Position numbers and translations under genes: made by a program. Shown piece by piece: positions 7,079 through 25,579 of a stretch of 64,000 nucleotides of DNA (its first letter is position 1; every line of letters starts with the position of its first letter). This DNA comes from Clostridia bacterium (GTDB lineage Bacteria; Bacillota; Clostridia; Oscillospirales; CAG-272). Location of the stretch: positions 1 to 64,000 of the forward strand of contig JAFQEC010000029.1 in the NCBI GenBank assembly GCA_017415805.1. Direction: 5' to 3'. The notes under the pieces were generated by a model. That model had not been told where the DNA came from. It searched no databases and was given only the letters and a program-made list of their open reading frames with translations.

Positions 7079-8065
7079 ATGAGCATTCGTATTGGTATTT
7101 ACGGCTACGGCAATCTTGGCCGAGGCGTGGAGGCGGCGATCCGCCAAAATGAGGATCTCACGCTTGCCGCAGTCTTTACGCGGCGCGATCCCGCCACATT
7201 GAAGATCCGCACAAAGGGCGTGCCCGTGGTGCATATCGACAAGGCGGCCGAAATGGCCGATCGCATTGACGTGATGATCCTGTGCGGCGGCAGTGCCACC
7301 GACCTGCCCGTGCAGACCCCCGCCATGGCCGCGCTGTTCCACGTGGTGGACAGCTTTGACAACCACTCCAAGATCCCCGAGCACTTCGCCCGTGTCGATG
7401 CCGCCGCGCGCACGTCGGGCAAGGTGGCAATGATCTCGGTGGGCTGGGATCCGGGCCTGTTTTCGCTTGCACGCCTGATGGGCAACGCCGTCCTGCCCGA
7501 CGGCAAGGACTATACCTTCTGGGGCAAGGGTGTGAGTCAAGGCCACTCCGATGCCATTCGCCGCATCGAGGGCGTGTTGGACGCCAAGCAGTATACCGTT
7601 CCCGTAGAGGCCGCGCTGGAAGCGGTGCGCGCAGGCAAGGATCCCACCCTCGCCACGCGTGAAAAGCATACGCGCGAGTGCTTCGTGGTGGCTGCCGAGG
7701 GTGCCGACCGTGCACGCATCGAGCACGAGATCAAGACCATGCCCGCCTATTTTGCCGATTACGACACCACGGTGCATTTTATCTCGGCTGAGGAGCTCAA
7801 GGAAAAGCACAGTGGCATTCCGCACGGCGGATTTGTGATCCGCAGCGGCAAAACGGGGCTCGATCTCGAGCACAGGCACATCGTCGAGTATCGCTTGAAG
7901 CTCGATTCCAACCCCGAGTTCACCTCGTCGGTGCTGGTGGCATACGCACGTGCCGCCTATCGCCTGGCGGCAGAGGGCGCGTGCGGCTGTAAGACCGTGC
8001 TCGACGTTCCCCCCGCATACCTCTCGCCCAAATCGGGCGAGGAGCTGCGCCGCACACTGCTCTGA
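7079..8065 (+). CDS. ddh: meso-Diaminopimelate D-dehydrogenase
   Basis: NADPH-dependent enzyme making meso-diaminopimelate directly from tetrahydrodipicolinate and ammonia, the one-step branch of lysine/peptidoglycan synthesis. 328 residues, the usual length. The Rossmann motif GIYGYGNLGRG opens the protein; CGGSATDLPVQTP, SFDNHSKIPEHF and SVGWDPGLFSLAR are diagnostic for the family; the substrate-binding segment WGKGVSQGHSDAIRRIEGV follows. Strong ribosome site AAGGAGGGG. A single-gene unit with its own promoter and terminator. It implies meso-DAP peptidoglycan, fitting murD further on. Confidence 0.95.
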   Translation: MSIRIGIYGYGNLGRGVEAAIRQNEDLTLAAVFTRRDPATLKIRTKGVPVVHIDKAAEMADRIDVMILCGGSATDLPVQTPAMAALFHVVDSFDNHSKIPEHFARVDAAARTSGKVAMISVGWDPGLFSLARLMGNAVLPDGKDYTFWGKGVSQGHSDAIRRIEGVLDAKQYTVPVEAALEAVRAGKDPTLATREKHTRECFVVAAEGADRARIEHEIKTMPAYFADYDTTVHFISAEELKEKHSGIPHGGFVIRSGKTGLDLEHRHIVEYRLKLDSNPEFTSSVLVAYARAAYRLAAEGACGCKTVLDVPPAYLSPKSGEELRRTLL

Positions 8066-23900: not shown

Positions 23901-23935
23901 AAAGCGCCGAGGCACTGCCTCGGCGCTTTCTTTTT
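23901..23935. terminator. Bidirectional terminator, PHP gene / rsmA
   Basis: 13-bp perfect stem AAAGCGCCGAGGC with ACT loop, followed by CTTTTTATTTT; the rsmA stop overlaps its edge. Confidence 0.88.
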
Positions 23936-24800
23936 ATTTTGCGATCTCTGCGGCGATCAGATCCGAGAGGGCTACGAAATCGGCGGTGTTCAGCCGTTCG
24001 CCACGGATGTCGGCGCGGTGTCCTGCTGCCTCGACCAGTGCCACACACTGCTCCTTGGAAAGCTCGGGGAAGCCCGCCGAGAGGGCGTTTGGCAGCGTTT
24101 TGCGCCGCTGCTCAAAGGCGGCGCGCACCGTGCGGAAGAACAGAGCCTCGTCCCGCGGTACAAGGGGCTTTTGCGCGTACAGACGGATCTGCACCACCGC
24201 CGAATCCACCTTCGGGGGAGGGAGGAAGTTGCCTGCCGAGACCTTGAACAGTCGCTCGGCCGTTCCGTAATAGTTTAGCACCGCGGTGATCGCGCCGTAG
24301 GCGGCAGTGCCTGCGCGTGCCGCAAGACGGTCGGCCACCTCGGATTGGATCATCACCGTGATCGAGCGGAAGGGAAGTCCGCTTTCCAGCAGCCGCATCA
24401 GGATCGGCGTGGTGATGTAATAGGGGAGATTTGCACACACCGAAACAGGCCCCTTTCCAAAATAGGGCGCGAGGAGCGCGGCAAGGTCGGCCTTCATCAC
24501 GTCCTCGTTCACGACCTTCACGTTGTGAAAGTCGTTCAGGGTGTAGGTCAGTACGGGGATCAGGCCGCGGTCGATCTCCACGCTCACCACGTTCGCGTAG
24601 CGCGCGCAAAGCTCGCGCGTCAGTGTGCCGATGCCTGGGCCGATCTCTAAGATCGTGCTCTCGGCCGAGTCGGCCGCCGCGTCGGCAATATCGCCCACGA
24701 TCATGGGATTGGTGAGAAAGTTCTGCCCGAACTCCTTGCGAAAGCGCAGGGAGAAGGTGTCCATCAGGCTTTTTACAGTTTTGATGTCACAAAGATTCAT
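23934..24800 (-). CDS. rsmA: 16S rRNA (adenine1518/1519-N6)-dimethyltransferase
   Basis: KsgA/RsmA, dimethylates the two adjacent adenosines in the 16S 3' hairpin during small-subunit maturation. 288 residues. FGQNFLT substrate/SAM segment, SAM motif LEIGPGIGTLT, SVEIDRGL, and the catalytic NLPYYITTPI. The C-terminal domain has FLPPPKVDSAV. The ATG at 24800 follows GAGGT; an in-frame TTG four codons earlier is part of that ribosome site. Own promoter. Loss of this gene gives kasugamycin resistance in other bacteria. Confidence 0.95.
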   Translation of the reverse strand: MNLCDIKTVKSLMDTFSLRFRKEFGQNFLTNPMIVGDIADAAADSAESTILEIGPGIGTLTRELCARYANVVSVEIDRGLIPVLTYTLNDFHNVKVVNEDVMKADLAALLAPYFGKGPVSVCANLPYYITTPILMRLLESGLPFRSITVMIQSEVADRLAARAGTAAYGAITAVLNYYGTAERLFKVSAGNFLPPPKVDSAVVQIRLYAQKPLVPRDEALFFRTVRAAFEQRRKTLPNALSAGFPELSKEQCVALVEAAGHRADIRGERLNTADFVALSDLIAAEIAK

Positions 24801-24829
24801 TGTATACCTCAAAAAAGATCGTTGGTTGT

Positions 24830-24890: not shown

Positions 24891-25247
24891 TTATCCGTTG
24901 CGGTTTTCCTTTGCGGTTTTGCACGATGCGATCAGCATTACCCGTAACGAAGTGCATTTGGAAGAAAGCACTTTGAATTTTTGCTCGTCAATATACTTTG
25001 TTCGATAAAGCAATTCCAACCAATAGCCCGTTTCGCTTGCTTCTTTAAGGGCGATTTCAAATTTGGATATAAAATCCTTTGTCCCTTGTGCGTATTGCGC
25101 TTCGTGTATGTTCGCACCGATGGAGGTGCCGCTTCTACCGATTTGATTTGCGATCACCGTTTCGTGGTTTGCCTTCAGGAGTTTAACCAGATTGATGATA
25201 TCAACGGAAAAATCCATTGAGAGCTCGACAAGCTTGTTTTCCTTCAC
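24891..25247 (-). CDS. Four-helix-bundle protein (23S rRNA intervening-sequence protein family)
   Basis: 118 residues of the S23/IVP four-helix-bundle family, relatives of which include ORFs in 23S rRNA intervening sequences and Avd of diversity-generating retroelements. Signature segment QIGRSGTSIGANIHEAQYAQG, then KFEIALKEASETGYWLELL. The start is GTG at 25247, 8 nt after AAAGGAG; the frame is open further upstream, but that part is the hairpin array and promoter and is unlikely to be translated. Composition is more AT-rich than neighbours. It lies downstream (minus strand) of tRNA-Val with the array in between. No reverse transcriptase is near, so an Avd role is unlikely. Confidence 0.82.
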   Translation of the reverse strand: MKENKLVELSMDFSVDIINLVKLLKANHETVIANQIGRSGTSIGANIHEAQYAQGTKDFISKFEIALKEASETGYWLELLYRTKYIDEQKFKVLSSKCTSLRVMLIASCKTAKENRNG

Positions 25248-25266: not shown

Positions 25267-25294
25267 ATGTTATAGGCGTTGTTTGGGTTGTCAA
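25267..25294 (-). promoter_or_regulatory. Candidate promoter of the four-helix-bundle gene
   Basis: Minus strand TTGACA, 16-bp spacer, TAACAT; the -35 begins right after the last unit of the hairpin array. Confidence 0.5.
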
Positions 25295-25303
25295 AACGAT
25301 GCA

Positions 25304-25461
25304 TCGCCTGTGGCGACATGATGCATTTGCTTTGCAAATATGATGTTGCTGCACTTTGTGTCGCAATGATGCGATGTTTGCCATAAAATGTGGCGAAGCC
25401 ACGCATCATTCGCGAAGCGAGCATCATTGGGCATAGCCCAACATCATTTGCCGCAGGCAAA
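25304..25461 (-). repeat. Array of about seven small hairpins with ATGATG/CATCAT linkers
   Basis: Short stems of unlike sequence but similar size: TTTGCC/GGCAAA (25447-25461), TGGGC/GCCCA (25428-25440), TCGC/GCGA (25410-25420), GTGGC/GCCAC (25390-25402), an imperfect TTGC-GCAC one (25346-25366), ATTTGC/GCAAAT (25325-25339), TCGCC/GGCGA (25304-25316). On the minus strand the linkers are AATGATG in the first half and CATCAT in the second half, so the linkers of the two halves are complementary. It lies between the tRNA-Val terminator and the promoter of the four-helix-bundle gene. Confidence 0.75.
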
Positions 25462-25470
25462 CATCATTGA

Positions 25471-25500
25471 AAAAAAGCACTGCTAATGCAGTGCTTTTTT
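25471..25500 (-). terminator. Terminator of tRNA-Val
   Basis: 13-bp stem AAAAAAGCACTGC with 4-nt loop and T run, starting 2 nt after the encoded CCA. Confidence 0.88.
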
Positions 25501-25502
25501 TC

Positions 25503-25579
25503 TGGTGGGGACAGTTGGGATCGAACCAATGACCTCATGCATGTCAAGCATGCGCTCTAACCAGCTGAGCTATGCCCCC
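25503..25579 (-). tRNA. tRNA-Val (anticodon GAC)
   Basis: Cloverleaf readable on the minus strand: acceptor GGGGGCA/TGTCCCC with one G-U pair, D arm AGCTCAGCTGGTTAGAGCG, anticodon stem CATGC/GCATG with loop TTGACAT (anticodon GAC), T arm ATTGG TTCGATC CCAAC, discriminator A and encoded CCA. GAC reads valine codon GUC (and GUU by wobble). Own promoter and terminator. Confidence 0.95.

Follow-up and report, generated by a model that had tools for sequence, protein, structure and literature searches.

A tRNA-Val gene and the gene of a small four-helix-bundle protein are separated, in the window analysed here (the whole stretch of 64,000 nucleotides), by a dense series of short hairpins. What is this hairpin array, why does it stand at the end of a tRNA gene, and how is it connected with the gene behind it? 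On balance we favour the view that a mobile gene cassette, residing at tRNA 3' ends in gut Clostridia, begins with this array, which would act as folded DNA and be bound by the protein, S23. The features of the locus are as follows.

tRNA-Val (GAC), 25503-25579, minus strand: predicted with ARAGORN; its CCA end is the left junction of the cassette by the junction rule from relatives.
Intrinsic terminator, 25470-25500, minus strand: AAAAAAGCACTGC-ATTA-GCAGTGCTTTTTTT, between tRNA and array; terminators at the same position travel with arrays in relatives.
Hairpin array, 25296-25469, minus strand: linker-hairpin units, four with ATGATG and then four with CATCAT-type linkers; supported by fold tests and homologous arrays.
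Promoter of the S23 gene, 25269-25294, minus strand: TTGACA at 25289-25294, a 14-nt spacer, TATAAC at 25269-25274.
S23 / four-helix-bundle gene (PF05635), 24891-25247, minus strand: 118 amino acids, GTG start, single copy in the genome.
rsmA, 23934-24812, minus strand: host gene and right-hand neighbour of the insertion site.

Read along the minus strand from 25469 to 25296, the array consists of seven mini-hairpins with unlike stems, four and then three, set between linkers. The ATGATG linkers lie at 25462-25467, 25442-25447, 25422-25427 and 25404-25409, and those of CATCAT type at 25366-25371, 25340-25345, 25318-25323 and 25296-25301, the last reading CATCGT and the other three CATCAT. The elements between them, all on the minus strand, are listed below.

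Hairpin 1, 25447-25461, minus strand: TTTGCC-TGC-GGCAAA; its 5' strand is able to pair with the array centre too.
Hairpin 2, 25427-25441, minus strand: TTGGGC-TAT-GCCCAA.
Hairpin 3, 25410-25420, minus strand: TCGC-TTC-GCGA.
Hairpin 4, 25390-25402, minus strand: GTGGC-TTC-GCCAC.
Array centre, 25373-25382, minus strand: GGCAAACATC, complementary to linker 1 plus the 5' strand of hairpin 1 (GATGTTTGCC).
Hairpin 5, 25347-25365, minus strand: TGCGACACAAAGTGCAGCA, imperfect.
Hairpin 6, 25325-25339, minus strand: ATTTGC-AAA-GCAAAT.
Hairpin 7, 25304-25316, minus strand: TCGCC-ACA-GGCGA.

The pairing of the centre with the first linker and hairpin strand covaries in relatives (GATGTTTGCC, GATGTGTTCCGC, TAAGTGTTCCG and GATGCGTTCC). 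Folded alone, the array is more stable than all 200 dinucleotide shuffles both as RNA (z -4.7) and as DNA (z -3.5), and the RNA value reaches z = -6.7 when the terminator is included. The fold prediction proposed by the initial annotation thus bears out its description of about seven unlike-stem hairpins with complementary ATGATG and CATCAT linkers, and its bounds are also correct, with the tRNA-Val terminator (25470-25500) directly before the array and TTGACA (25289-25294) at its end.

The protein behind the array belongs to the family of 23S rRNA intervening-sequence proteins (PF05635, 23S_rRNA_IVP; E 2.2e-27, 95.8 bits against a cut-off of 33.8). Its AF2 model is a four-helix bundle (pLDDT 94.7) that superimposes on 2RLD with a TM score of 0.90 and on Avd/DGR RNP chains with a TMq of about 0.75. 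While it resembles the S23 proteins with known structures (2RLD, 2GSC) in sequence and fold, its setting is different: the known open reading frames lie inside the 23S gene, whereas that of the window is flanked by tRNA-Val and rsmA, outside any 23S rRNA gene and behind a hairpin array, and its relatives are likewise found at tRNA genes. Silent differences are in excess between S23 genes, which indicates purifying selection. In the open-licence literature, we found S23/four-helix-bundle genes described neither with hairpin arrays nor in tRNA cassettes, and no account of the cassette system. Two human-gut phage records (MT835590.1 and MT835815.1) encode S23 proteins 53-58% identical to that of the window; a search of viral_contigs gave S23 matches of only 39-52% identity.

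The initial annotation had suggested looking for arrays upstream of S23-family genes in other genomes. Eighty close S23 relatives were fetched from named genomes, most of them MAGs in which arrays often lie at contig ends, and 75 had enough upstream sequence to be searched for a linker repeated at least twice and then followed by at least two copies of its reverse complement. An array directly upstream was detected for 70 of these 75 close PF05635 genes, always in the same orientation. The same detector responded in 4 of 750 shuffles, 2 of 73 regions downstream of S23 and 18 of 958 other windows. The linkers are of several types (among them ATGATG, GTGATG, ATGAAG, GTGAAG, GTGATATT and GCTAAAT), and all linkers of one array change together. 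When the commonest 6-mer of each half was taken independently, the two arms were complementary in 53 of 55 loci, compared with 1037 of 2970 combinations (35%) between loci. The proposed pairing of linkers across the array is therefore backed by covariation. When the four main linker types are placed on a tree built from 64 S23 proteins, they require 8 changes against a shuffled mean of 33.4, and none of 200 shuffles was as low; since linker types track the tree, array and gene travel and evolve together.

Several side observations belong here. A box C/D or k-turn motif, considered for the AUGAUG-like linkers, was abandoned, since the linkers of other loci are GTGAAG, GTGATATT or GCTAAAT. A divergent S23 variant (MAKNYLL.YSEQLATD...) stands behind arrays with another linker, TGATGATATAC / GTATATCATCA (L175:203-688 and L052). 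In another S23 subclade (L018-L022, L025-L027 and L029), hairpin arrays are absent upstream; there, 8 of 9 genes are preceded by at least three tandem copies of a 6-mer, often starting at the preceding gene's stop codon.

As evidence against the association, the initial annotation had named genes commonly found without arrays, or arrays found mostly without the gene. The first is rare, as the 70 genes above show, but the second is frequent. The window's own genome (a 1.47-Mb MAG) has arrays at four places and S23 only once: contig C26 is the window copy with S23; C14 has an array 3' of tRNA-Arg without S23; C22 has one with neither tRNA nor S23; and C16 has a half array after three tRNAs. Arrays thus lack S23 in 3 of 4 copies in this genome and in about 34 of 43 sampled in the family, because they head other passenger genes too. 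A search of PLSDB plasmids for arrays gave no match. In the same genome, C38 (L178:3800-4000) also carries the common terminator and a decayed array, just behind a restriction-modification-like gene pair.

What the arrays share is their insertion site. Of 65 arrays with upstream sequence, 46 adjoin an intact gene on the same strand, namely 45 tRNAs of many isoacceptors and one tmRNA, whereas 2 of 2751 random positions lie 3' of a tRNA; in several other cases a cassette or a tRNA-like 3' remnant stands in front of the array. At the junction, a short A-rich trailer and the terminator hairpin start directly after CCA. When the commonest terminator was used as a pattern in 118 genomes of the family, it matched 28 times, in 15 genomes, and every match inspected was followed by an array or the remnant of one, so terminator and array move together. 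The comparison of tRNA-Val loci with and without the module, which the initial annotation had proposed, shows filled and empty states of one site: within this genus, the tRNA-Val/rsmA site holds array and S23 in G000, array and promoter without S23 in G002, neither array nor S23 in G004, G011 and G017, and another array type in several genomes. Its idea of a mobile module of protein and array 3' of a tRNA gene is supported by these junctions together with the upstream arrays, the covarying linkers and the match with the S23 tree. Across species, the tRNA-Val/rsmA interval (L050-L065) is an insertion hot spot with ATGATG arrays, remnants and empty sites, and it also holds ATATCATC arrays with another S23-like gene (L052). 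In G002 (L051), array and promoter stand directly before rsmA and may give the host gene a new promoter.

Outward from the tRNA, the order is array, promoter and small gene, either S23 or another, and such cassettes occur singly or in tandem (L175, L176, L180 and L181). For example, L176 consists of tRNA-Tyr, an ATGATG array with S23 and a lipoprotein gene, a GTGAAAT array with DUF3885, and an array with an orphan ORF; L181 consists of a tmRNA, a GTGAAAT array with GNAT, and an ATGATG array with an ORF; and L180 of tRNA-Ser, an array with NUDIX, and an array with ORFs. S23 is the commonest passenger, and at some loci a small ORF starts about 5 nt past its stop. The other passengers, by Pfam, include NUDIX, GNAT, glyoxalase, AadA_C/NTP_transf_2, methyltransferase, WapI-like immunity, AAA_18, DUF2695, DUF218, DUF4240 and DUF4275. 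After the passenger's stop comes a conserved tail of about 57 nt with two imperfect direct repeats; its last letters are GCA, and the next terminator usually follows closely. The core of this tail, searched alone in the 118 genomes, occurs at 19 places, compared with 2 for the reversed pattern. Where the upstream sequence is long enough, nearly all of these tails are preceded by an array at a distance of 0.35-1.3 kb and by a cargo ORF that stops 6-67 nt short of them; a terminator usually follows the tail, and a tRNA or tmRNA often stands at the far end. As the search used no arrays, S23 or tRNAs, it is an independent recovery of the cassette unit. Neither a recombinase nor a transposase turned up in the cassettes.

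Measured against this anatomy, the window copy is, judging by its sequence, a partly decayed cassette. The tail known from relatives is missing between S23 and rsmA, and the spacer between TTGACA and TATAAC is 14 nt rather than the 17 nt of relatives such as L042; the promoter is therefore probably weakened.

Between genera, S23 has diverged less than the core genes. S23 proteins are 90-97% identical between genera whose RsmA proteins are 53-67% identical, and the corresponding DNA identities are 83-86% for S23 and 67-73% for rsmA, with array DNA up to 96% identical. S23 being far more conserved than RsmA, the unit moves horizontally, and comparison between species suggests that it is excised and inserted. 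The modular anatomy, the junctions, the horizontal spread, the exchange of passengers and the co-evolution of array and S23 can all be read from the sequences, and we regard cassette anatomy and mobility as very probable.

Another account would treat the arrays as passive repeats, similar to MITEs or REPs, that insert close to tRNA terminators and have genes behind them only as chance neighbours or hitchhikers. REP/BIME elements with RAYT transposases do likewise consist of linker and hairpin units in inverted orientation outside genes, but in the arrays the hairpin sequences are not conserved, only the linkers within one array. The account is in keeping with the gene-less arrays of the window's own genome and with arrays ahead of ordinary host genes such as rsmA (L051) and citrate synthase (L232). 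It would also suit what we call class B arrays (L245-L248, L251 and L255, and L003 at C22:14657-14808 in the window's genome), which are multi-copy, have no tRNA and no cargo, and have fixed flanks (GGCGACCTGCGATAAAGCAGGTC..GCCGAACGATG ... CCCGAAAACAAAATATCGTATAACACAC); these have the look of a MITE family based on this array, and they suggest that arrays may also be mobilised in another way or have a MITE-like nature. However, passive repeats would hardly stand upstream of nearly all close S23 genes in one orientation, be matched by tails on the far side of the cargo, follow the S23 tree in linker type, or bring with them a gene more conserved between genera than core genes. We consider this account improbable.

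Whether the cassette's array works as RNA or as DNA is the next question. The initial annotation had pictured a structured RNA or DNA, with RNA or cDNA association as a theme of the protein family, and an RNA-level module, in which the array is transcribed by tRNA readthrough or from its own promoter and bound by S23 as Avd is in the DGR RNP, would agree with the stable RNA fold and with the resemblance of S23 to Avd and DGR RNP chains. The stems argue otherwise: 245 array hairpins contain 14 G.U and 13 A.C positions in all, while the tRNA acceptor stems of the same loci have 64 G.U and 2 A.C (Fisher 5.7e-7 versus arrays); terminators just upstream have 27 and 10, a contrast with the arrays that is not significant (p 0.11). 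Furthermore, the loops are mirror-symmetric, those of the 5' arm being mostly C(TNC)G and those of the 3' arm mostly the reverse complement, C(GNA)G, so that no single RNA strand has uniform loops; such symmetry would be expected of a constraint acting on double-stranded DNA. The terminator before the array and the S23 promoter after it add to the case against a transcript. GC-rich mini-hairpins with a GAA loop are extraordinarily stable as DNA (PMC10527192). From the absence of a G.U excess, the mirrored loops and the flanking terminator and promoter, we judge that the array probably works at the DNA level and that the RNA picture is unlikely.

One further point on the RNA side is that Rfam lists an arm of GTGAAAT-type arrays as the Gut-1 RNA (RF01706), which was proposed as a stand-alone ncRNA and is known only from gut metagenomes (PMC2864571). 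In the window region, Rfam gave only a sub-threshold Gut-1 match, to the 5' arm (28.3 bits, below the gathering cut-off of 50), and chance matches beside the tRNA. Gut-1 exceeds its gathering score on both arms of GTGAAAT-type arrays (64.7 and 55.9 bits), on opposite strands (L181:3928-4112; L176:6337-6422 and 7249-7334), which again speaks against an RNA-level module. In contrast to the stand-alone RNA of the proposal, the Gut-1 "RNA" therefore seems to represent a single arm of these larger, mirror-symmetric arrays at the head of genes.

Group IIC introns and DGRs both recognise DNA hairpins. It is conceivable that a host reverse transcriptase, of group IIC-intron or DGR type, copies cassette RNA in trans into the tRNA/terminator site, with S23 as an Avd-like accessory. 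The Avd-like fold of S23 and insertions adjoining terminator hairpins fit such retrotransposition, and so does the DGR target, which needs a DNA hairpin or cruciform with variable stem sequence and a GRNA loop (PMC3240598) and so resembles the C(GNA)G loops here in putting structure before sequence in the stem and in its G..A loop (PMC3240598). Unlike in a DGR, however, no reverse transcriptase, template repeat or variable repeat was seen here. RVT_1 occurs in 31 and arrays in 33 of 118 family genomes, with an overlap of 8 where 8.7 is expected, and the window's own genome has no RVT_1 match. A DGR-like retro-mechanism is unsupported, as reverse transcriptases and arrays do not co-occur; retrotransposition in trans is very improbable, and the cDNA association named by the initial annotation is not supported either.

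The preferred reading, a mobile cassette headed by folded DNA, can be put as a working model. The unit comprises a terminator, the hairpin array, an outward promoter, one or two small genes and the tail of about 57 nt ending in GCA. It is inserted directly after the CCA of a tRNA or tmRNA, or behind the tail of the cassette before it, giving tandem cassettes. The array DNA would extrude mini-hairpins with C(GNA)G loops and a four-way-junction ladder closed by linker pairing, and the folded array would serve as a structure-recognised site for recombination or protein binding, analogous to integron attC. An S23 oligomer would be its cognate binding protein; a hairpin-DNA-recognising S23 would fit the hairpin requirement of DGR targets and the Avd-like fold. 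We infer these last elements, namely the array working as DNA, the site recognised by structure and S23 as cognate binder. Both the array as a candidate recombination site and S23 as its predicted binding protein are propositions to which we give an even chance.

Integron cassettes (IntI/attC) are the nearest comparison. Both systems have single promiscuous passengers of much the same kinds, an arrangement in tandem, structured sites that recur almost identically within one genome (here L037) and a fixed chromosomal insertion point. Yet attC is a single hairpin, while the array is about 175 bp long with 7-8 hairpins and paired linkers, and unlike integron cassettes, those described here carry their own terminator and promoter, insert at the tRNA CCA end and have S23 as the commonest passenger. 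The integron integrase IntI (TIGR02249) was over cut-off in 0 of 59 relatives, and inspection of the tail consensus by eye revealed no obvious GTTRRRY/RYYYAAC pair of attC R and L boxes. In its widest form, which we put forward tentatively, the model describes a gene-capture system separate from integrons: cassettes would insert at the universal tRNA CCA end, the folded DNA array would be the recombination site, S23 would recognise the array, and the S23 elements of 23S rRNA and the retroelement protein Avd would be relatives in one DNA-hairpin-binding family.

If this is true, gut and rumen Clostridia would trade small genes between genera, among them acetyltransferases, an AadA-like nucleotidyltransferase and immunity-like proteins, by an undescribed route independent of the integron integrase. 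The Rfam family Gut-1, thought to be an ncRNA, would have to be reinterpreted, and tRNA CCA ends, as sockets for cassettes in general, would make up an integration target of a new kind. The widespread S23/four-helix-bundle family would gain a testable function, the recognition of DNA hairpin arrays.
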